DNA of 13,414 bases, taken from contig JAIQCW010000194.1 in NCBI GenBank assembly GCA_020283715.1, positions 1 to 13,414 of the forward strand, given 5' to 3'. Positions 1,262 to 13,284 of the stretch are shown here, in pieces. Made by a program: the position numbers and the translations under genes. Below the pieces are notes generated by a model. It did not search any database, was not told the origin of the DNA, and saw only the letters and a list, made by a program, of their open reading frames with translations. Origin of the DNA: Cytauxzoon felis. Its lineage: Eukaryota > Apicomplexa > Aconoidasida > Piroplasmida > Theileriidae. How positions within the stretch are numbered: position 1 is the first letter of the stretch; every line of letters starts with the position of its first letter.

Positions 1262-2506
1262 ATGGAACCCTTACACAGTGAGGATGTACCAAATGATATC
1301 GCAAAAATAATAGAGTTAAATGATAAAAACAAGGGTATAGTTAATAAATATGGCATTAATCCTTATACATCAGGCAATGTGTGCCTCCTAAGGAATATTT
1401 ACTGGGGACAAGATGACATTCCTAAAGAATGTTCCTGCACATTCTCAAGATTACGTATGTTTCACCCTCATACACTAACGACCATTGTGATAAGTCATTG
1501 TATACTCCACCTGAGGTTTAATCCAACACTCTTCATCCTGCCGTCAGCTCTCCTAATTCATTCCCTCTAAAGAGTAGAGCCACTCCCAGAGATCGTGGTG
1601 AAGATCAGGTGGAAACCTCAAGTGGACTACCCGTAGCTGATCTCAGGGAAGCGGAGGGGGAAATAAATAGAAGAGGTTCCATGCAATGGCAAGGATAGTT
1701 GGATTGGACTTCAGGTGGAACGGCGACTGGTAAGGGAAAAGGTAGACATGAATATCCTTCGGGTAACAATTGTTCACTATTGATTTATTTTTTCTAGAGC
1801 GTATGGAATTGGATTGTGCGAATGGTATAAAGGATAATTGTGAGGAGAGTTTATGTGAGACATGTTGTATATTGAGTTTGAGTGATCGATTTTCTGGAGA
1901 ATATTTTGATTCATCACTGGGTTATCCAATAAATTGTAAGATGAGATGCTTCAACTCTCAAGTCATTACAAATATTACACTGGATTCCATCCAATTCATT
2001 AACGATTACCTCAAAATTATCAATAACATTTATCACCCATCATTACATCTACATAAACAACACGGTAAGTATACACTAAAAGAAGGAACAGACTATCATC
2101 CAATAGTAAATCCTATCTATTATATCTAGTCTTCCACTAGACATTCCACCTGAGGTCCAATCCTTGCCTACACTGTTCGTCCTGCAGACAGCTCTTCTAT
2201 TTACTTCCCCCTCAAACTCCCAGAGATCATTCTCGGGTATTCCACTCGAGGTCCAATCACTATACTTCCGCCACGATCTCCGGGAGTGGTTATACTCTTT
2301 AGAGATAGGTAATTAGAAGAGCTGTCTGCAGGACGAACAGTGTAGGCAAGGATTGACCTCAGGTGTAGTATTGACTGGAATAATTGTACATATTAATTAT
2401 AATAATTCATTTCTTAATTGCTAATATACAAAATATTGCAGATGAAATTACTGTTCCTACTCAGTATCATATATTACCGTTGAGTGAAAGGGATGAGATG
2501 TTATAA
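1262..2506 (+). CDS. 174-aa cysteine-rich protein, three exons with two repeat-filled introns (function unknown)
   Basis: Exons are modelled at 1262-1454, 1798-2064 and 2442-2506. Junctions are TTAC|GTATGT...TTCTAG|AG, giving CAG, and CACG|GTAAGT...TTGCAG|AT, giving GAT. The frame runs to TAA 2504-2506. The start ATG 1262 is the first in-frame ATG; the frame is open slightly further upstream, so a short upstream exon is possible (ACTATACAG just before could be an acceptor). The protein has about eleven Cys, clustered as CSC near the first junction, then DCANG, DNCEESLCETCC, and NCKMRCF, a spacing that could bind metal or form disulphides. No signal peptide follows the chosen start. The tail is LPLSERDEML. 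I do not recognise the family. Both introns (343 and 377 nt) are mostly MR sequence. Confidence 0.68.
1507..1718. repeat. MR mosaic repeat, intron 1 of the Cys-rich gene
   Basis: The order is A (CCACCTGAGGTTTAATCC), B1 in minus sense (CATCCTGCCGTCAGCTC), a degraded hinge, C3 in minus sense (CCACTCCCAGAGATCGTGG), an inner A (CCTCAAGTGG), C1 in plus sense (CCGTAGCTGATCTCAGGGAA), hinge, B3 (TTCCATGCAATGG) and a terminal A (GGATTGGACTTCAGGTGG). This is a complete head-to-head pair with different C and B modules on the two sides. Confidence 0.88.
2146..2365. repeat. MR mosaic repeat with 52-bp near-perfect inverted arms, intron 2 of the Cys-rich gene
   Basis: The arms at 2147-2199 and 2314-2365 are reverse complements with one inserted C as the only difference. 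They contain A, a spacer (CTTGCCTACACTGTTCGTCC) that I see in no other copy, B2 and the hinge start. Between them lie a C2-like module in minus sense, an inner A (CCACTCGAGGTCCAATC) and C3 in plus sense. The identical private spacer in both arms points to recent arm copying or gene conversion within this element. Confidence 0.92.
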
Positions 2507-2575: not shown

Positions 2576-3580
2576 ATGTCAGATGATTTAGATTGTATTA
2601 CAATTTTGGGTCTCCAGAGTATCTTAGCTGTGACATCTTTTATATTCTGCCTTTATACATGTAGAAATGTTAAGGTACAGTTCAAGAGATCTAATAGTAG
2701 CAATGAATATTATTATTCACCTATTAATATCATAAACAATAATGATATTACGAATATCAATAATAAAAATGCTATTAAAATGGTTATGAATAAAATAGAA
2801 TTACCAAATAAAAGGAAAAAGGTTGACTCAACCATCAATAATGATGACATTCAACTCTTAAATAACTTGATATCAGATGCCAACACATCCTCAATCTTAA
2901 ATAAAAACTCAATAAAAATCATTAGTGACACGATCGATAATGAAAAATTCACCATAGAACAATGTATCAACACTATTTCTTATGAATTCGGTAGTTATCT
3001 CAACATAACATAATCACACATTCAGTAACTCTCTATGGTACCGATAAACTACAACAAGCGGATATAAACTTATTACTCAATAATATACACTCAATACACA
3101 ACATCACGTACGTTAAACCCTATACACAAAGGAGTTTGCGGATGCTCCACTAGATGTCCAATGCAACTCTTTTTCTCTCCACCTGAGGTCAATCCTGCCG
3201 TCAGCTTCCTTATTTATCTCCCCTTCCAGCTCCCGTAGATCGCTTCCAGGTTCCACTTCCACTTGAGGTTACATCCTTATTACCTTCACGTTCTTCCGGG
3301 TTGACAATATACCGAGGATGATCTACGGGAATCCGAGGGGAGGTAAATAGAAGAGCTGTCTGCAAGACGAAGTAAGTTGGATTGGGCCGGCTGGAAGACA
3401 ATGATTTAACGGTAGTGTTGCTCATTGTCGCTCTTATTCTTCGATAATAATAATATTTAGTCAATTGGATTATATAGAGGTATTGGTGATACTTTTATTA
3501 TTGGATCGGATTATTATAAAGTCTTTTCAACCTTTGGTACTTTTATTATCGATTGTAATCATCACAACAAACGTAAATGA
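2576..3580 (+). CDS. 199-aa single-pass membrane protein, three exons (function unknown)
   Basis: Exons are modelled at 2576-2990, 3026-3107 and 3478-3580. The 35-nt first intron (GTAGTT...ATTCAG) removes an in-frame stop. The second (3108-3477, GTACGT...TATATAG) holds an MR element. Frames join as TTCG|TA and AC|A, ending TGA 3578-3580. The protein starts MSDDLDCITILGL with a hydrophobic stretch at about residues 8-26 followed by CRNVKVQFKR, a type III-like signal anchor. An Asn-rich low-complexity part and a basic NKRKK follow. The C-terminal 80 residues look folded (FTIEQCINTISYEF, GIGDTFIIGSDYYKVFSTFG). No family is recognised. The frame is open upstream to a GTG at 2534, but 2576 is the first ATG. 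Only about 70 nt separate it from the previous stop. Confidence 0.6.
3147..3390. repeat. MR mosaic repeat, intron 2 of the 199-aa membrane-protein gene
   Basis: The copy begins with a diverged A (CCACTAGATGTCCAATGC) and a second A (CCACCTGAGGTCAATCC). B1 minus, the hinge and C2 minus (TCCAGCTCCCGTAGATCGCTTCC) follow, then inner A motifs (CCACTTGAGGTTACATCC). A central segment TTCACGTTCTTCCGGGTTGA resembles the centre of the 11811-12424 cluster. Then come C4 plus (CCGAGGATGATCTACGGGAA), hinge, B2 (CTGTCTGCAAGACGAA) and a decayed terminal A. Confidence 0.85.
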
Positions 3581-3642: not shown

Positions 3643-4109
3643 ATGGACGGTCACCCACAAGATTGGAATCTGAATACAGTATCCTTTTCCATTGCATGGA
3701 GCTTCTATATTTACTTATCTCTAAAGAGTATAGCCACTCCCGGAGATCGTGGCGATAATGGAGGTAGTAGTTATGTAACCTCAAGTGGAACCCGTAGCTG
3801 ATCTCAGGGAAGCGGAGGGGGAGGTAAATAGAAGAGCTCCACAGCAGTGGGAAATAAGAGACAGAATGTAAAATCTCTTGTCGACAAAAATTCAGTTGTA
3901 AATTCTTTATAGCATCCCATTTAATTGTATGTTAAATTAATGTATAGGACTATGAAATTCGGGTGGATGAATTGGCATGTATGGTATTGATGATGTCTAG
4001 CATGAGATCGAACATTGAAGTTGGTGAAAGTGATATTACAAGTGTATTGGAATCTGTACGTGGTGGTGTGGTGCGTCGTTCTAGTAGGATAAGGAAGAGT
4101 AATAGATGA
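3643..4109 (+). CDS. 65-aa small protein with basic C-terminus, two exons (function unknown)
   Basis: Exon 1 is modelled at 3643-3678 (MDGHPQDWNLNT) and ends at ACA|GTATCC. Exon 2, 3948-4109, follows the acceptor ATGTATAG and closes with TGA 4107-4109; both junctions are phase 0. The second exon encodes an acidic-to-hydrophobic helix (DYEIRVDELACMVLMMSSMR), then ESDITSVLESV and a very basic end, RRSSRIRKSNR, that could be a nuclear-localisation or nucleic-acid contact. The intron (269 nt) holds an MR element. Exon 2 is supported by its frame and the clean acceptor. Exon 1 is weaker and could instead be 5' UTR, with the true start elsewhere. A minus-strand open frame at 3921-4181 is treated as a shadow. 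Confidence 0.5.
3687..3852. repeat. MR mosaic repeat, intron of the 65-aa gene
   Basis: The order is B3 minus (TTCCATTGCATGGAGC), hinge, C3 minus, a unique inner spacer, inner A (ACCTCAAGTGG), C1 plus, hinge and a B3/B4-like decayed cassette (CTCCACAGCAGTGG). Both outer A motifs are missing. Positions 3734-3834 are an exact reverse complement of 12794-12894. Confidence 0.88.
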
Positions 4110-4394: not shown

Positions 4395-5865
4395 ATGGAC
4401 AAGATAGATTCGTTGTCTATAAATAATTCTAATTATAATACACCACCATCAGTTACAACTGAATCTAACCATAATAATAATCACAAGTATGTCTAAATAT
4501 CACAATTTCATTTTATATTCATTAATTTTTAGTGATTCTTTTAAAAATGTTAAACAAGAATCTATTTTACAATCTAAACCAGGTATTTACCACACTCACT
4601 TCTTCATCTATACTTATATCATTAGATGTATGGAAACCATTATCTAAAAATGGACCAATCACACCCATAGAAAACATCTGTAGAAACATCAAAGGAAACC
4701 TCAATAAGCTCACCATTGAAAAATTCGAAACACTCACTGAAAAAATCGCAATCCAATGTGAGAATATAGATAACTACAACGACATCCTCCTTATTGTCGA
4801 TCTCATCATTAATAAAGCTGTATCTGAACCAGATTGGTCCGAAATGTACTCTGATCTATGTCAAGTAAGTGTTTTACATATAGTCAAAGTCCGATTCCAC
4901 TCGAGGTACAGTCATACTCTTCTTCCCCACTCGCCGTGGTGGCCTCTCTATTTACCTCACCTCGACTCCCATGGATCGTCTCGGATACTTCGCCACGATC
5001 TCCGGGAGTGGCTCCACCCTTCAGGGATAGGTAAATAGAAGAGCTGACGGCAGGATGACGATAGGTGGAAGTGGAAGAGGGGAAGGTGGATTGGATTTCA
5101 GGTAGAGATTGCTACTACTATATCATACGTTCTATTGTTATTATTCATGTTATATTTGATATATAGATATTATTTTGGCGTTCTCGTGAGTATATTGTGG
5201 ATGGTAAGCGTTTATCGTTTGCTAGTGCATTATTAACGAAGATTCAACGTGAGTATGAGAGTACCCCTCGTGATTTTGAGGATAGGTTATGTGATGATGA
5301 GTATGAGTTGTATGTTAAGAAATTAAAGACACGTGTATTGGGTGTTGTAAAGATGATTGGTGAATTATTTCAGAGGAGGATGTTGGGTTTTAAGATAGTA
5401 AATAAAGTAGTATATGATTTGGTTATGAATAAGGAGGAACCTCATGAATATTTTATAGAATGTTTTATACAATTGATATATAGTACTGGTTATTATATTG
5501 ATTGTAATGATTCATATCGTCCTGTATTAGATTTATGGTTTGGTCGTTTAAAAGAATTATTACTTAAGAAATGTTATTCTAAAAGGATCAAATGTATTAT
5601 ACAGGATGTTATTAATCTGCCTAAAGCACAGTGGCATAAAAAAATACATAAAGAAACTGCTAAAGCATTAAATGATCTCCGAGAACAAATACAATCTGAA
5701 GATATACTTGGTGGATCTGCGCTTGCCGCACAATTCGGACATATCCTCATTGTAGGACAACGATATAACTTAAATGCCAACTGCACCTATGGTGATTATA
5801 TGAAGAAACAAGAACACCTTTATAAAGATAAGAAACATAACAGCAACAATAACCATAAACACTGA
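4395..5865 (+). CDS. MIF4G-domain protein, eIF4G-like, 359 aa, four exons
   Basis: Exons are modelled at 4395-4486, 4533-4582, 4626-4864 and 5167-5865. All introns are GT-AG (46, 43 and 302 nt), and the frame closes at TGA 5863-5865. After an Asn-rich start, the domain begins near residue 60 (IENICRNIKGNLNKLTIEKF). It shows the MIF4G helical-repeat signatures in order: VDLIINKAVSEPDWSEMYSDLCQ (split here by position), LLTKIQREYE near 149-158, VVKMIGELFQRRML near 187-199, and RIKCIIQDVINL. MIF4G domains bind eIF4A and RNA in translation initiation. At 359 residues it is hardly more than the domain; no long N-terminal PABP/eIF4E-binding region or C-terminal MA3 domain is present, so it could be a minimal eIF4G or a related scaffold. 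The last intron carries an MR element. Confidence 0.9.
4897..5104. repeat. MR mosaic repeat, intron 3 of the MIF4G gene
   Basis: The order is A (CCACTCGAGGTACAG), B4 minus (CCACTCGCCGTGGTGG), hinge, a C2-like minus module (CGACTCCCATGGATCG), C3 plus (CCACGATCTCCGGGAGTGG followed by a variant, CTTCAGGGATAGG), hinge, B1 (GCTGACGGCAGGATGA) and a terminal A (GGATTGGATTTCAGG). The CTTCAGGGATAGG variant recurs at 12900-12915. Confidence 0.87.
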
Positions 5866-6365
5866 CATTTTTAATGTAGTTCACTAAATCAATACATACA
5901 TACATTTGTAAAAACACAATAGACGAGGTGTTGGATACTCCACATTAGGTTATATCTGTAATAGGTACAACCTCGCATTCTCTTACATCCCAATAACAAT
6001 GGTGTATTCTTATTCATTTCCTTCTAACTGCTATAAATATCATCCCGGGGATTGTGGCTGAAATTATAATGTTCCTGCCCCATTGTTGTTAATTTACCCC
6101 AGTATGTGAATTTTCAAAATGTTGAAATAACAAGGGATGTTTTATATAATATAGACAATTGAATTTCCGTTATTTTGTCAAATTAAATATTGTTATAATT
6201 CAACTGTATAATTTGTGTTTTCTGTTAGTTTTGTAATTTTGTATATATTGTTGCCCCATTATTCATAGTAGTTGTATGGAAGTAGTAAAATCGTAGCATT
6301 TATCACCTGAATGATAACATCATCCAATAATATGTTACCAATTGCTTTACTATGCCAATTGGAGA
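5866..6365. promoter_or_regulatory. Upstream region of the FAINT gene, no gene seen
   Basis: About 500 nt without a supported gene. It holds the 3' UTR of the MIF4G gene and the promoter/5' UTR of the FAINT gene. Two similar patches, CCTGCCCCATTGTTGTTAAT (about 6072-6091) and GTTGCCCCATTATTCATAG (about 6251-6269), stand out from the AT-rich background. No tRNA cloverleaf and no MR motif are seen. Confidence 0.35.
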
Positions 6366-7951
6366 ATGCATTTCTTTACATTTGTATTCATCGCACTATG
6401 TAAATATTCAATCGTAGGGGAACGACGTATTAAACGTGTTGATGTTGATATAAAAATTAAGGAGGGAACAGATGAAATTGAAGTGTCAAAAGGAGATACT
6501 GGTAATGTTATTGCCTATAACATTAAACCTAAAATTGACTGTGGATTTCGCAAAATTTCGGATGACAAGCGCCTATTTTACTTATCCAGAGATGGAGATA
6601 ATTTCGAAGCAGCAGAAGTTTTATACTTGAAGGGTATTAAAGGACCTATTCTTGTCAGACTGAATTTTAAAAGTACTAAAGTTCGTGGCGAATTTAGGTA
6701 CACTTACTATCTCCGGTTTCTTGACGAGTGGAGAATGGTTACGAATCATATTTATAACTTTACTGTAAATAAATTATTTAAATGTAAACCTGACAGTCAA
6801 GGGAAGTTGATTCCTCCAAATTTAATAGTACTTGATGTTAATGAAAGAGGAAGTAATGATAAGTATGAAGTTGAATGCATTAAAGAGGGTGATAACAAAT
6901 GGAACATTAAGTTCATTCCAAAGAGTGGATGTCATATATTGATAATAACTGCTGGTAAAGGATCTATATGGTTTCTAGGTGGGAATCATAAAGTTCCTGA
7001 TGAGGTTAATGTATCAATTGCAGATGAAGTTGTTGTTTCATTAACATTCAAGGACCCTAAAGGTGAAAAGGAACCAGAGACAGTCATATATAGACCACAT
7101 CCAGGATTAAAGTCTGATCGCGATATGCTATATGTTGATGATGAAGATGATAAAAAGAAGGTGGGTACTATTGGTGAAGATGAACGCAGGGACGAAGAAG
7201 AGGAAGAAGATGAACAGGGAGTAATAGAAGATCCAACTGAATGGACAGATGGAATAGATGTCACTGAAGAAGAGATGGAAAAATTGGCTGAACTCCAGGA
7301 AGAAAACTACAGGATGAAAGAGTTGACAAAGAGGTTATTGAACCCGAAGCCGATCTCGGGGAGGCGGAGGGGGAACTAATTGAAGAAGGCGCCACGCCGA
7401 GTGGAGAAGATATTGAACCTGAAATCGATCTCAGGGAGGCGGAAGAGAGAGTAGAAGAAGTACTAGAAGAGGAGGAGCAGGAATCTGAAGTCGATATCGA
7501 GGAGCTGGAAGAGGAAGAAGAAATATTACCTGATTATTATCTGGATGATTACTTTAAAGATTTGAAGCCGATTACACTAGACATTTACAATCATGAGACT
7601 GAAGGATTGGAAGTTAAGATTAAGTCATATCCAAAGCACTCATCTACTATTCACACATGTATACCAAAGAAAGGTTATATTATCGATTCATTATATGATT
7701 CACAACGTGGAGAAACGGTATGGAGGAAGTATAAACATGATAAATATGCTGTAGTGGCCCTTGTTTATACACGTAAAACTCAACTGATTGTACTATTTGT
7801 AATTGATGTAAATCCAAATAAATCTAAAGTCTTATACTATAGGAATTTACCATCATCTGGATGGAGAGAACGTTATAGAGAATCATTAGATCAATGTTAT
7901 TTAGATACTATAATTAAAGGAGAATGGAGAATCTCCGAAAAAGTTTTGTAA
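6366..7951 (+). CDS. Secreted FAINT (DUF529)-domain protein with acidic repeat linker
   Basis: The first ATG (6366) gives a signal peptide, MHFFTFVFIALCKYSIVG. Then come FAINT-like domains at residues about 23-135 and 152-245 (NLIVLDVNERG, FIPKSGCHILIITAGKGSIW), an acidic linker at about 255-381, and a third domain at 383-500 (KPITLDIYNHETEGLEVKI, CIPKKGYIIDSLYDS). FAINT proteins are abundant, often secreted piroplasm proteins; several are exported into the host cell in Theileria (family knowledge). The frame moves by one base between 7292 and 7379. A 53-nt intron, 7260-7312 (GTCACT...CTACAG), would join exons 6366-7259 and 7313-7951 into 510 aa, but that stretch also reads as acidic coding sequence (MEKLAELQEEN), so a one-base loss or an assembly error is equally possible. 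The linker includes three tandem units related to the MR repeats. Downstream strand-convergent neighbour: the WRAP53-like gene. Confidence 0.85.
7260..7312 (+). other. Candidate 53-nt intron or frameshift zone in the FAINT gene
   Basis: Removing this segment (GTCACT donor, CTACAG acceptor) joins two open frames in phase 0 (GID|DER). The donor is weaker than the GTAAGT/GTATGT used elsewhere in the window. Without removal, the first frame stops at 7377-7379, inside repeat unit 1. Confidence 0.45.
7340..7520 (+). repeat. Coding, in-frame MR-related tandem repeat (three units) in the FAINT linker
   Basis: Units start near 7340, 7415 and 7481. They encode EPEADLGEAEGELIEEG, EPEIDLREAEERVEEV and ESEVDIEELEEEEE. 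Unit 1 aligns with MR modules C1-H-B4: GATCTCGGGGAGGCGGAGGG matches GATCTCAGGGAAGCGGAGGG, followed by CCACGCCGAGTGGAG matching B4. The closest non-coding match in the window is 11317-11389, where by eye about four bases in five agree. Conversely, C1 copies in introns read V-A-D-L-R-E-A-E-G-E in the matching frame. Confidence 0.82.
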
Positions 7952-8026: not shown

Positions 8027-8370
8027 ACCTGAGGTTATAGTCCAACTCTCTTGGTCCTGCCGTCAGCTCCTCCACCTGAGGTCATTCCACTCGGCGTGGA
8101 GCCTTCTTCTAAATACCTATCTCTAAAGAGTATAGCCACTCCCGGAGATCGTGGCGATGAAGTAGAGTAGTACTGGACCTCAGGTAGAACCCGTAGCTGA
8201 TCTCAGGGAAGCGGAGGGGGAAGTAAATAGAGAAGCTGACGGCAGGATAGACCTCGAGTGGAAAGCTCCATGCAATGGGAAAGAAGGACCTCAGGTAGAA
8301 GCTGTCTGCAAGACGAAGAAAGTTGGATATTTACCTAGACCTAACGATCGTCGGATGGACTTCTAGTGGA
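8027..8370. repeat. MR compound repeat in the convergent intergenic gap
   Basis: This is the only MR cluster outside a predicted intron; the gap 7952-8405 lies between two converging 3' ends. The order is A, B1 minus, A, B4 minus, hinge, C3 minus, inner A (GGACCTCAGGTAGAACC), C1 plus, hinge, B1 plus, A, B3, A, B2, then a tail TAGACCTAACGATCGTCGGA that recurs at 9660-9680. In the DLRE frame, positions 8166-8363 are open for 66 codons without a usable start. Confidence 0.87.
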
Positions 8371-8405: not shown

Positions 8406-10222
8406 TTAGTTTATGATATTATAGATTGAGATGTTTATATCTTCATTGATGAGATCATCGAATTGTCTATAGATGTAAATATGGATGTATGTATGATAAA
8501 ATTACCTATTACCATTACTAGTTAATAATAGATTAGATATTTTATTAATATTACATGTAGTAATAGATAATTTTGATAAATTTTTATTATAAATTTCAAT
8601 ACCATTATTTAAATTAAATATTTTTATATAACCATTAGTAGTACCAGTTATTAAATTATTATTATAAATATCAAATAATATTTTTTGATTATTATTAACA
8701 ATTCTATTAAATCTCATTAATGGTATATTACAATTACTACGTAAATCATAATATCTTATATAATAATCATTACGACAACCAACTATTAATATATTTTCAT
8801 TATAAAATTTCATCTAATTATATAAATTCTATTCATTATATAAACTAACATATGTAATAGGACCTAATGGATATTCATTATCATTAATATCTATTAAACT
8901 TATAGTACGTGATTCATTATTATCATATATACCAATCAATGAATTATAACTACCACATGCATACATCTTACCACCATCATACTCATTATGACATATACAT
9001 GATATTATACCACGCTGAACATTACCACGAACATTCAATAATCTACGAACCTATACTTACTAATAACATACAATCCAATTCCACCTGAGGTTCAATCCAT
9101 CTCTCTTCGTCCTGCCGTCAGCTTTTCCAATTATCTCCCCCTCCGCTTCCCTGAGATCAGCTACGGGTATTCCATCTCCACCTGAGGTCCAATATCACTA
9201 CATCCATATTCGCCTCATCACTTCGTCTTGCAGACAGCTCTTCTATTTACCTCCCCTCGGATTCCCGTAGATCATCCTCGGTACAATATCTTCATTTTTA
9301 CTCCCATAATTTGAAGGAAAATCCGAATTTCTGGGGAAACTCATGACAATATCTCAATGATTATTGGATGAATTTCTAATGTTAATACTTCATTAAAGAG
9401 GGATACTATTGCTTCATCTATTATTATCATCCTCACTTAATTCCAATCTACATCCATTGAGATATCCCATCAAACATGAATATAGTCACTTTATACTTAT
9501 CTCGTCGAGATTAGTAATTGACCTCAAGTGGAACCTGGAAGCGATCTATGGGAGCTGGAAGGGGAAGTAAATAGAGGAAGCTCTCTGCAAGAGAATGGAA
9601 GGATGGGAGTGGACCTCAAGTGGAGAGCTGACGGCAGGATAAAGATAGTTGGATTGGACCTAGACCTAACGGTCGTCGGATGAACCTCATTTGTCTTCGT
9701 ATAAACATACTTCAATTTGTTGTCCGGGTTCTTCTACATCGAAGACGTAGATATTATTTTTGCTACCGCAGAGTATATATTTACCGGATGGGTGGAAGTT
9801 TAAAGAGTATATTTCAGCTAATTCTCCCATGTTATTGATTGGTTTATATGTAAAGTGTTTATTTCCATACTGTACATCATATAAATGTACCTAGTATATA
9901 TATATATGGATATATTACAGGTACAACATACAGGTGTATTTTTAGATGATATTAATATACAGCATGAATCTGGATAATTCCAATTGAAATTTGGAAACCA
10001 TTGTATATCTCTAATATTATCTTGTAAATTTAATTTTAAATGAACTTTTAAATTAATAATATCATTAATATTAAATATAGTAATTATATTATCATTAGTT
10101 AATGTATATATACATATACCATCTGGACTAAATGATGATAATTTAATAAAATTTATATCATTAATATTATTTTTTTTAATTTTATAATCGAATTTATATT
10201 TCGATAATAAATTAATTTCCAT
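8406..10222 (-). CDS. WRAP53/TCAB1-family WD40 protein, five exons, 346 aa
   Basis: Minus-strand exons, 5' to 3': 10222-9932, 9890-9711, 9050-8850, 8813-8506, 8466-8406. Introns are 41, 660, 36 and 39 nt, all GT-AG with phases that close to TAA at 8408-8406. The blade order and motifs follow WRAP53: NFIKLSSFSPDGICIYTLTN and NIRDIQWFPNF in exon 1; GELAEIYSLNFHPSGKYILC in exon 2; EVRRLLNVRGNVQRGIISC across the long intron; KMYACGSYNSLIGIYD; then CRNDYYIRYYDLRS, LITGTTNGYIKIFN and LLLTSNGNRQF. WRAP53/TCAB1 binds CAB-box RNAs and helps telomerase RNP and scaRNA localisation in animals (family knowledge). This copy is near the bare propeller, lacking the N- and C-terminal extensions of the human protein. 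Shared divergent promoter with the gene at 10449. Confidence 0.92.
9081..9284. repeat. MR mosaic repeat, left part of the WRAP53-like gene's long intron
   Basis: The order is A (CCACCTGAGGTTCAATCC), B1 minus (CTTCGTCCTGCCGTCAGC), hinge, C1 minus (CGCTTCCCTGAGATCAGC), A (CCACCTGAGGTCCAAT), B2 minus (TCGTCTTGCAGACAGC), hinge and C4 minus (CGGATTCCCGTAGATCATCC). Both half-units face the same way here, followed directly by family F2. Confidence 0.87.
9285..9515. repeat. F2 repeat, copy 1 (about 230 bp, AT-rich)
   Basis: This segment is homologous, in inverted orientation, to 11046-11287. Shared anchors include TTTGAAGGAAAATCC / TTTGAAGGAAATCC, ATTTCTGGGGAAACTCATGA (identical), ATGAATTTCTAATGT, ATCATCCTCACTT, CATTGAGATATCC, and an end TTATCTCGTCGAGATTAG against TTATCTCGATGAGATTAG. 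It sits between an MR half-unit in minus sense and one in plus sense. No open frame of note. Confidence 0.85.
9516..9688. repeat. MR mosaic repeat, right part of the WRAP53-like gene's long intron
   Basis: The order is A (GACCTCAAGTGG), C2 plus (GGAAGCGATCTATGGGAGCT), hinge, a B2 variant (CTCTCTGCAAGAG), A (GGACCTCAAGTGG), B1 plus (GCTGACGGCAGGATAAAG), A, then the tail TAGACCTAACGGTCGTCGGA shared with 8337-8356. The DLRE-type frame is open for about 54 codons from the A motif to a TGA near 9680. Confidence 0.86.
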
Positions 10223-10449: not shown

Positions 10450-13284
10450 TGATTAATAAATTAATAATTATAAATTTATTATTATTTATTAATAATATTT
10501 ATACTAATATATTAAAATCAAATACAAATATATTAAATAATATATGTAATAATATTATTAATTCTATAGAATTATTAAATAAAAATGAATTAATTAAATT
10601 AATTGATTATAATAATTGTAAAAATTATGAATTATTAGGAGATAAAATTTTAAATATATCAAATAAATATAATAAATATTGTTATAAATCATTATCAATT
10701 ATATTATGTAATATCAAATTTATACCATTTGAAAATAATCTCAATTGTCAACATATCAAACAAAAATTTGTCAATATCATCAATACTTGCATCAATGATC
10801 ATAATAATAATAATAAAAATTGTAATAATGTCGATCCAGATACCAATATCATCAATGATACACTCGAATTCTGCCAAACAAATCATATCTATAATGGTAC
10901 AGTCCACTATAATATACTCAACATGAAGTTTAATCACTACATAGACCTCTTCCACTCTACCTTGTCTTCCCATTGCATGGAGCTCTTCCAATTACTTCCC
11001 CCTTCGCTTCCCTGAGATCAGCTACGGGTTCCACTCGAGGTTATAAACCTAATCTCATCGAGATAAGGATAAAGTGATGGAATCCACATAAATGAGGATA
11101 TCTCAATGAATATAAATTGAAATGAAGTGAGGATGAGTAAATTAAATACAATCATCAAATTCCTCTTCAATGAGGTATTGACATTAGAAATTCATTTGAT
11201 ATTCATTGAGTTATAATCATGAGTTTCCCCAGAAATTGAGGATTTCCTTCAAATTTCAGAGGTAAAAATGAATGTAGTGAAATTAGTGATTGGACCTCAA
11301 GTGGAGACCTCAAATGGAACCTGGAAGCGATCTCAGGGAAGCGAAGGGGGAAGTAAATAGAGAAGGCCACCACGGCGAGTGGAGAAGAGTTGGATTGTAA
11401 CCTCAGGTGGAAGTGGATTATTTATGATTAAATAAATTATAATAAATAGGTGAGAAGATGATAGGTTTTGATTCTGTAGAGTATGATTATTGTGGTCGTT
11501 TGGTAGAGAGTTATAATATGTGTCAATTGATATCAAAGAAATTAGGTTATAAAAGATTTTGTATAGATGGTGGATTTCAGAGTTATTGTACACATTATAT
11601 TAATGGTAAATTGATTTATAATTTAATATTTATAATTATTAGAAATACATGATGATTTATATACTACAATGTGTAGTAATTTCGTTTTACCATTCATCTT
11701 CACCAAAATACTCAATAATGAATCAATCACACATAATATCTGCCAAGATACAAATAATATCAAATATACACTACTCAAAAAAAGAGTATGTTCAATAACA
11801 AAATACACATTCTACTCGAGGTCCATACGATGACCGTTCCACCCGAGGTCCAATCCATTTCTTTACCACTATCCATTTCTTTCAGATTTTCACCTTCTAT
11901 TCCCACTGCCGTGGTGGCTTCATCTATTTAGTTCCCCCTCAAGCTCCCGTAGATCGCTCTCGGGTATTCCACTTGAGGTCATGTACTCACTAACTTCCTG
12001 TTCTTCCGCGTTGAATATTAGGAGATTTATGGGGTTTATTATAATTATGAGGTTTTTTATCCCCAGAATACCCCATTACCCCATCTTCTCCACTCGAGGT
12101 TCAGTCCATTTCCTTACCAATATCCATCCTTCATCATTAACCTTTCCTTCGTCTTGCAGACAGCTTTCCTTATTTACTTCCCCCTTCGCTTCCCTGAGAT
12201 CAGCTACGGGTTCCACTTGAGGTTACATCCTACTCTCCTTTCCACTTGATGTTACATCCAACATATCCTTAGAACCATCTTCCATCATTCCCATGATGGA
12301 TGATCCATCACAACCTTCATCACTACCCTCTCCACGATCTCCGGGAGTGGCTATACCGTTTACGGGGAGGTAATTAGAAGAGCTGACGGCAGGGCGAAGA
12401 GAGTTGGATTGGACCTCGAGTGGAGATGAATTATCAATAGAATATATGAATAATGATAAGAGATATATATATTAATAGGATTATTTGATGAGTAAGAGTC
12501 AGAGTGATGATGATATGATGGAATCAGAATTAGCATTTAATTCATGGAGTAATGATTTAGAATCGCATTTACAAACTATAGTAAGTTATATATTAATTAA
12601 ATTATCATATATAATTCATTATTTATAGCATGATAATCTACAAAATCTTATCAAACAATCCGAACTATGCTTCAATTATATGACTTATACATTCAACTGG
12701 TCATACGCATTCGATGATACAATCGTATGTTCATTAACATTATCATATCCACCTGAGGTTACATCCGCCTTTCCTTCGTCTTGCAGACAGCTTCTTCTAT
12801 TTACCTCCCCCTCCGCTTCCCTGAGATCAGCTACGGGTTCCACTTGAGGTTACATAACTACTACCTCCATTATCGCCACGATCTCCGGGAGTGGCATTAC
12901 CCTTCAGGGATAGGTAATTGGAAGAGCTGTCTGCAGGACCAAGAGAGGTGGACTGGAATATAGTGATTGGACCTCGAGTGGAGGTGGATTATATATGATT
13001 ATGATGATTGGATTTATATAGTTATGAATGATTGATATTATAGAGGTTGGAATTTAATCGTTCAATGGGTATAGTAGATGGTATACATGATATATTATTG
13101 AAATTACCTGATGAAACAACTACAAATTTATCATATTCAAGAATAAATGAAATTAATAATCTATCACTCAAAATTCAAGAAGCTATTATACACTTTAAAC
13201 AATTATATACACTCGTAAGTATACAAATACATACACACACACATAATCATTTAGATGTCATCAGGATCACACTACTATTTCGCC
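10449..13284 (+). CDS. Secreted Cys-rich protein with helical C-terminal part, at least seven exons (3' end beyond window)
   Basis: Exons are modelled at 10449-10896, 11450-11605, 11643-11785, 12479-12580, 12629-12724, 13044-13214 and 13255-13284; the first two junctions are phase 1 (both rebuild GG|T or G|AA codons) and later ones phase 0. The signal peptide is MINKLIIINLLLFINNIYT. An Asn/Ile-rich ectodomain follows with many Cys (NCKNYELL, KYCYKSLSIILC, EFCQTNH, YDYCGRLVESYNMCQ, RFCIDGGFQSYC). After the 693-nt intron come an acidic linker (KSQSDDDMMESE) and heptad-like helices (NDLESHLQTIHDNLQNL, INNLSLKIQEAIIHFKQLY). 382 residues lie in the window. No family is recognised; a Cys-rich ectodomain followed by coiled coils recalls Kar5/GEX1 karyogamy proteins, but I see no diagnostic motif. 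Exons from 12479 could be a separate gene starting at ATG 12488. Codons are strongly A/T-biased in exon 1. Confidence 0.6.
10950..11045. repeat. MR half-unit left of F2, intron 1 of the secreted Cys-rich gene
   Basis: The order is a B3 minus cassette (TTCCCATTGCATGGAGCTC), hinge (TTCCAATTAC), C1 minus (CGCTTCCCTGAGATCAGC) and A (TTCCACTCGAGG). An unspliced read would carry the exon 1 frame into this copy as far as CCTTCGCTTCCCTGA, which would be a false C-terminus. Confidence 0.86.
11046..11287. repeat. F2 repeat, copy 2 (about 240 bp, inverted relative to copy 1)
   Basis: Reverse-complement homologue of 9285-9515, with scattered substitutions and small indels, and the identical core TCATGAGTTTCCCCAGAAAT. 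It is bounded on both sides by MR A motifs (CCACTCGAGG left, GGACCTCAAGTGG right), so it forms the core of an MR-F2-MR composite of about 460 bp. Confidence 0.85.
11288..11410. repeat. MR half-unit right of F2, intron 1 of the secreted Cys-rich gene
   Basis: The order is A twice (GGACCTCAAGTGG, then GACCTCAAATGG), a C1/C2 hybrid plus (GGAAGCGATCTCAGGGAAGC), hinge, B4 (CCACCACGGCGAGTGG) and a terminal A (CCTCAGGTGG). Its C-H-B4 stretch, 11317-11389, is the closest intronic match to the coding unit at 7340. Confidence 0.87.
11811..12424. repeat. Large MR compound cluster, intron 3 of the secreted Cys-rich gene
   Basis: The order is two A motifs, B4 minus (CCCACTGCCGTGGTGG), hinge, C2 minus (CAAGCTCCCGTAGATCGC), A, a centre with GTTCTTCCGCGTTGAATATT (related to 3290-3310) and a GGGG/CCCC-rich patch (12028-12083), A, B2 minus, hinge, C1 minus, two A-like motifs (CCACTTGAGGTTACATCC, CCACTTGATGTTACATCC), a unique spacer, C3 plus, hinge, B1 plus (GCTGACGGCAGGGCGAAG) and A. 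It looks like several nested or serial insertions. Confidence 0.85.
12749..12982. repeat. MR mosaic repeat, intron 5 of the secreted Cys-rich gene
   Basis: The order is A (CCACCTGAGGTTACATCC), B2 minus, hinge, C1 minus, inner A (CCACTTGAGGTTACAT), unique spacer, C3 plus with the CTTCAGGGATAGG variant, hinge, B2 plus (CTGTCTGCAGGACCAA) and A (GATTGGACCTCGAGTGG). It shares 101 bp exactly, inverted, with 3734-3834. Confidence 0.9.

Follow-up and report, generated by a model that had tools for sequence, protein, structure and literature searches.

The acidic linker of a gene for a secreted-type FAINT protein in Cytauxzoon felis contains protein code which, judged by its nucleotide alignments, is homologous to copies of an interspersed foldback repeat (MR). 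The linker is probably an exonised MR fragment: MR would have spread to introns, spacers and exons, and one fragment would have been captured once in a FAINT ancestor and domesticated there. The window (the whole stretch of DNA analysed) was contig C115 in its full length of 13,414 b, from a genome draft of 8.62 Mb in 181 contigs. Its GC content was 33.4%, and it held 15 MR blocks and the FAINT unit, while at least 145 matches to PF04385 (FAINT) were found in the genome. The labels C, tail (B4), H' and T (terminus) denote aligned MR modules and may differ from the names in the original prediction. The features of the window are as follows, with MR blocks given without strand.

6366..7379, plus strand: FAINT gene, N-terminal half, read in the other frame, with a weak FAINT match (17.3 bits, under the cut-off of 20.7)
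7292..7951, plus strand: ORF with the linker units and the C-terminal FAINT domain (PF04385, 22.2 bits, above the cut-off of 20.7)
7337..7413, plus strand: unit 1, MR C module and B4-type tail as protein code, EPEADLGEAEGELIEEGATPSGE, from its score against null sequences
7405..7460, plus strand: unit 2, partial second C module, IEPEIDLREAEERVEEV, 84.6% over 39 nt against unit 1
7480..7520, plus strand: unit 3, doubtful C-like stretch, SEVDIEELEEE (29.2 bits, 18 of 1000 shuffles equal or above)
1501..1720: MR block, taken as non-coding (block alignment)
2141..2371: MR block, taken as non-coding, with a long hairpin (z -16.5, DNA folding)
3136..3395: MR block, taken as non-coding (block alignment)
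3700..3838: MR block, taken as non-coding, source of the main C query (block alignment)
4891..5108: MR block in an intron of a MIF4G-domain gene, flanked by two of its coding pieces, H' antisense to the gene (ORFs and blocks)
8027..8345: MR block with the FAINT gene on one side and weakly WD40-like coding pieces on the other (ORFs and blocks)
9076..9285: MR block flanked by weakly WD40-like coding pieces (ORFs and blocks)
9508..9670: MR block flanked by weakly WD40-like coding pieces (ORFs and blocks)
11259..11415: MR block, C module and tail 80% over 75 nt against unit 1 (alignment)
12141..12425: MR block, taken as non-coding (block alignment)
12746..12991: MR block, taken as non-coding (block alignment)

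Read in the 7292-7951 frame, positions 7340-7412 gave EPEADLGEAEGELIEEGATPSGEDI. The best score of this stretch was 77.0 bits against 147 MR blocks, which included the full-length exonic blocks and excluded ten linker units. Codon shuffles of the linker had a mean of 23.2 and a maximum of 34.6 bits, and recodings that kept the peptide but took their synonymous codons from four FAINT-type ORFs had a mean of 38.1 and a maximum of 61.7 bits, with none of 1000 reaching 65 bits in either case. Thus the likeness of unit 1 to MR lies at the DNA level, beyond the acidic peptide. Its best partner elsewhere in the window was 11314-11388 (80% over 75 nt), spanning the C module and the tail. Unit 2 (7414-7460) scored 36.5 bits, a value reached by none of 1000 shuffles (maximum 31.9), and on this alignment is a true partial C copy, while unit 3 is doubtful as an MR-derived stretch. 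Three units in the order C-H-B4 had originally been predicted; unit 1 was found in full with C and tail and unit 2 in part, and the third could not be upheld with confidence. Non-coding copies had also been expected to read D-L-R-E-x-E-G-E, and xDLRExEGE was indeed found in the equivalent frame, e.g. VADLREAEGEVNR and GSDLRELEGEVNR.

The FAINT gene of the window was spread over two overlapping frames (6318-7379 and 7292-7951), and the linker units shared their frame with the downstream FAINT domain only. The frame shifts inside the linker, which may reflect either a pseudogene or an assembly error. Seven related ORFs on other contigs were open throughout, unlike this two-frame gene.

MR is about 200-470 nt long with the ends TCCACCTGAGGT ... 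ACCTCAGGTGGA, and both inverted termini were present in 54 of 176 blocks. With up to 3 mismatches allowed, 2064 sites of the C core were counted, and the H' core had 1785, with 0 in reversed controls, and the two strands were about equally used by the C core genome-wide (1048 vs 1016). H' was found on either strand in the window (2 and 5), e.g. opposite to the MIF4G gene at 4993, and on both contig strands in non-exonic blocks (32 and 46). Copy 2141-2371, the single copy folded, gave a hairpin of -77.3 kcal/mol as DNA against a shuffle mean of -22.2 (z -16.5); it is a nearly perfect long hairpin. The GC content was 50% in MR, 29% in other sampled sequence and 30-36% in three coding stretches, so the argument that GC-rich MR fits a coding origin fails. 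Two further observations were made on MR structure. An inverted repeat pair (9284-9467 and 11096-11279, 184 nt, 78% complementary) lies next to MR blocks; it may belong to a separate repeat family or be a segment associated with MR. In addition, exonic MR in L086, L087 and L088-L093 has the extra modules VNPEEQ, LTRKNEDVQPLRTGNLPGGT and SDGSSIMGMMEDGAKDV, which recur between the H' and C halves.

A search of 54 copies for target-site duplications of lengths 2-6 and 8 found none, with no clear excess over shuffled pairing; the best signal (length 4, 3 of 54 vs 0.5 expected) was the maximum of 49 offset pairs. No mobilising enzyme was found with RVT_1, the only profile searched. Since neither was found, it is from its dispersal that MR appears to be mobile and would move as DNA. 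The sole RVT_1 match in the genome (C56:73693-74436) lay in a 1010-aa frame, and being a single locus it was rejected as a motor of MR; our guess is that it might be telomerase.

MR was also present within long open frames. In an ORF of C31, MR of about 150 residues stood in frame, and this peptide gave 256 matches in the genome (4072 candidates, 150 scored). Among the 150 matches listed, which are rows and not genes with several rows per ORF, 126 lay in frames of at least 300 aa, 92 in frames of at least 600 aa and 18 in frames below 200 aa, a ranking by translated similarity that favours open frames, and 10 listed rows had internal stops. Six ORFs picked from this list contained 283-492 MR residues each. 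At the 30 loci whose DNA was most identical to a single C copy of the window (two of these loci being in the window itself), the central C copy lay in an ORF of at least 200 aa in the C frame at 3 of 30 and in each other frame at 0 of 30. For 95 C copies, from the sampled loci minus C31 and C68, the numbers in such ORFs were 10, 0 and 0 by frame, and three of these ten were FAINT units. Roughly extrapolated from these non-random samples, 150-200 C copies would be exonic if 7-10% are. The original prediction, which placed the motif in FAINT linkers, was correct for these and too narrow in scope, as MR occurs in many long ORFs.

The orientation of MR in such frames was uniform. Picked and unpicked exonic rows together had H' forward in 22 and reverse in 0, with C in frame 0 in 25 of 27, while the 15 exonic copies not peptide-picked had H' forward in 12 and reverse in 0, with C in one frame in all 15. 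Because copies were classed as exonic on the strength of an open frame, this uniformity is largely built in, and the flank test carries more weight. In that test (MR of at least 110 nt, at least 60 open codons on each side, same strand), the frame was continuous without stop in 7 of 10 rows at loci not picked by frame. The three misses were one antisense of a continuous row, and C146 and C20 with a short open flank on one side; the 16 of 16 continuous rows at peptide-picked loci have no evidential value.

Within exonic MR, only 69% of aligned letters between copies (26,106 of 37,812) started in the same codon frame. Differences by codon position numbered 169/148/154 in exonic MR and 733/680/684 in non-exonic MR, giving no third-position excess and no sign of amino-acid constraint in exonic MR. 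Gaps in multiples of three made up 21 of 77 in exonic pairs vs 46 of 338 in non-exonic pairs. With differences about equal at the three codon positions, exonic MR inserts look like passengers obliged to stay open, and the FAINT unit looks domesticated. Exonic MR would on this reading be translated, although it could also be removed by splicing or belong to broken proteins.

MR in long ORFs could instead consist of stop-free introns similar to introners, with the FAINT unit alone being true protein code, which we regard as unlikely. The MR termini contain GAG/GT and CAG/GT, which are splice-site-like, and some MR copies are intronic, as in the MIF4G gene. However, an introner would use its own ends as splice sites and keep the frame, and if exonic copies were spliced at their termini, a frame shift would result for 10 of the 12 that could be measured and for 5 of 7 not peptide-picked, which argues against introner-like removal, although splicing might use other sites. 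Neutral introns, moreover, need not be open, as only 19 of 80 non-exonic blocks of at least 150 nt had an open frame of any kind (shuffle mean 9.1, maximum 17), and the continuity of 7 of the 10 flank rows also counts against this reading.

In two ORFs only, an MR insert was clearly flanked by conserved domains before and after it. On C114, one 771-aa ORF ran from MMR_HSR1 (4-135) through the EngA KH-like domain (674-754) and matched GTPase Der structures; Pfam gave a single GTPase stretch in it, and two MR inserts lay in frame between the GTPase and KH-like domains. On C108, the CPSF_A profile was matched at 16-74 before the MR insert with 22.4 bits, short of the cut-off of 27, and at 81-158 after it with 38.5 bits, and the whole ORF gave 53 bits in two stretches; no PDB match was found for it. 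In most of the other scanned MR-bearing ORFs no Pfam match above cut-off was found. The C74 ORF with a cNMP-binding domain had MR at its start only, which could be an intron read into the frame. The Der/EngA and CPSF_A inserts, together with the frame bias of 3 of 30 vs 0 of 30, support the direction from repeat into protein.

The linker unit was found in eight related FAINT-type ORFs, namely in the window and on C142, C71, C21, C160, C112, C43 and C74. Six of the eight had PF04385 rows, and C21 and C74 were assigned by homology. One unrelated 389-aa ORF on C85, for which Pfam gave no match at E 0.01, contained it as well. By eye, this ORF (L046:1632-2798; C85:120631-121797) shares the FAINT linker block past the MR-like part, and linker pieces may have moved between it and FAINT-type genes. 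The relatives on C44, C173 and C160:1-1941 had no unit and a different charged linker, their translations being read by eye. In C123, a more distant FAINT ORF, the linker reads NGPQVESEADLGEAEG, and an MR-like terminal module GGACCCCAAGTGGAA still precedes the C module. In addition, the FAINT ORFs of C98 and C164 carried other MR pieces in frame, in a survey that covered part of the FAINT genes of the genome.

A tree was built from 55 copies that have a B4-type tail (unrooted, about 71 nt, one locus in it twice with a shift of 2 nt), and in it the 9 coding units formed a single clade, 9 of 9, with support 0.979. The pooled Nei-Gojobori dN/dS was 0.364 for the 8 FAINT-type units and 0.433 with C85 included, while the C-terminal FAINT domain of the 8 FAINT-type ORFs gave 0.268, the samples being small and non-independent. 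The FAINT-type linker units show a purifying pattern, and this pattern and the single clade suggest one capture and later copying as protein code. The C160 FAINT protein, searched against a large protein collection at E 0.001, had no homologue there, so there was no outgroup. The original prediction had called for a search of other FAINT linkers, a tree of coding and non-coding copies and dN/dS on the coding ones, and it had staked its case on the motif occurring in other linkers and on scores exceeding those of shuffled acidic codons; other FAINT-type linkers did carry the motif, in eight related ORFs, and the scores were above those of such shuffles, while the tree gave the clade of 9 among 55 and the pooled dN/dS was 0.364.

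It had left two directions open, a mobile repeat captured as protein code and a gene linker that became the repeat. The former is backed by the in-frame MR of C114 and C108, by the one clade of 9 among 55 and by the MR terminus of C123. The latter, by which MR arose through amplification of part of a pre-existing acidic FAINT linker, seems rather improbable. The purifying constraint on the unit, the similar block in the non-FAINT gene of C85 and the unrooted tree leave room for it. On the other side, the coding units occupy a single branch of the 55-row tree, MR has modules without counterpart in the FAINT linkers read, conserved proteins are interrupted by MR inserts, and the measured coding GC is well below that of MR.

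Capture of an MR fragment, the preferred reading, could have proceeded in the following way. MR can be stop-free in one orientation and frame, and it would spread to introns, spacers and exons. An exonic copy would survive only where its orientation and frame leave it open, and it would there add a tolerated linker peptide. In the ancestor of one FAINT subfamily, a terminus-C-tail fragment would have been captured once, trimmed, partly duplicated and inherited through gene duplication, and it would now be maintained as ordinary protein code.

An assembly artefact, in which repeat reads collapsed into coding contigs, might be suspected from a draft of 181 contigs and from the frame change in the window FAINT gene, but it is very improbable, because the in-frame runs lie on separate contigs and contain different MR variants. 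Chance likeness of acidic low-complexity codons, with which unit 3 alone is compatible (18 of 1000 shuffles), can hardly be credited, since units 1 and 2 scored above all 1000 shuffles and unit 1 above all 1000 recodings too.

Rickettsia palindromic elements (RPE) are palindromic by name and occur in genes in one orientation and frame; their original papers are reportedly those of Ogata et al. In one account, RPE are short interspersed repeats with a conserved peptide, placed in frame inside unrelated genes, and R. conorii has 44 RPE insertions in genes (PMC10969869). MR may be likened to RPE by behaviour, being short, interspersed, in frame within unrelated genes with a conserved peptide, and foldback. 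It has an inverted-repeat structure (z -16.5 in the one copy folded, both termini in 54 of 176), it lies in frame inside unrelated conserved genes (Der/EngA, and CPSF_A with its first piece below the cut-off), and it keeps one orientation and frame there, in part through the open-frame definition of exonic. Unlike RPE, MR is found in a eukaryotic nuclear genome with introns, is longer, modular and mosaic, and has 2064 sites of one module core vs the 44 gene insertions of R. conorii.

Palindromic protein-coding inserts in housekeeping genes are described by one source for Rickettsia, Wolbachia and an archaeon (PMC2996958). PARCELs, as presented there, are palindromic DNA encoding protein repeats, also in some eukaryotic microbes, and MR is similar as a palindromic, protein-encoding repeat of a eukaryotic microbe; PARCELs form tandem 25-residue arrays in ORFs without assigned function (PMC2996958). 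MR is by contrast a dispersed insert, also found in conserved genes and introns. MITEs are short, without internal transposase, with inverted termini and many copies. MR is like MITEs in being short, with terminal inverted repeats, many copies and no transposase seen inside, and unlike MITEs it had no target-site duplication in 54 copies. Introners, e.g. of Amoebophrya, are described as inverted-repeat elements which are tied to introns and are themselves introns (PMC7789003). MR likewise has inverted repeats and is associated with introns, whereas the MIF4G copy sits within a longer AT-rich intron. When 64 apicomplexan genomes were surveyed, class II elements were reported from none, and C. 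felis, T. parva, T. annulata and T. orientalis had no transposable elements at all (PMC9141347). For Theileria, no description of such a repeat was found in titles and abstract starts of the open-licence literature, a search with most subscription journals outside it.

On balance we lean towards regarding MR as a eukaryotic counterpart of RPE, a self-spreading foldback repeat with one open frame that settles in proteins and introns. Many piroplasm proteins, perhaps hundreds including housekeeping ones, would then contain MR peptide, and some pieces would be domesticated. This would be RPE-like behaviour in a nuclear genome, in a phylum for which one survey reported no class II elements (PMC9141347). 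If the inserts are translated, repeat DNA would through them become new protein sequence directly, and this process could be caught at several stages, as insert, neutral passenger and domesticated linker. In that case the annotation of these genomes would also be affected, as MR frames could be mistaken for exons or introns.
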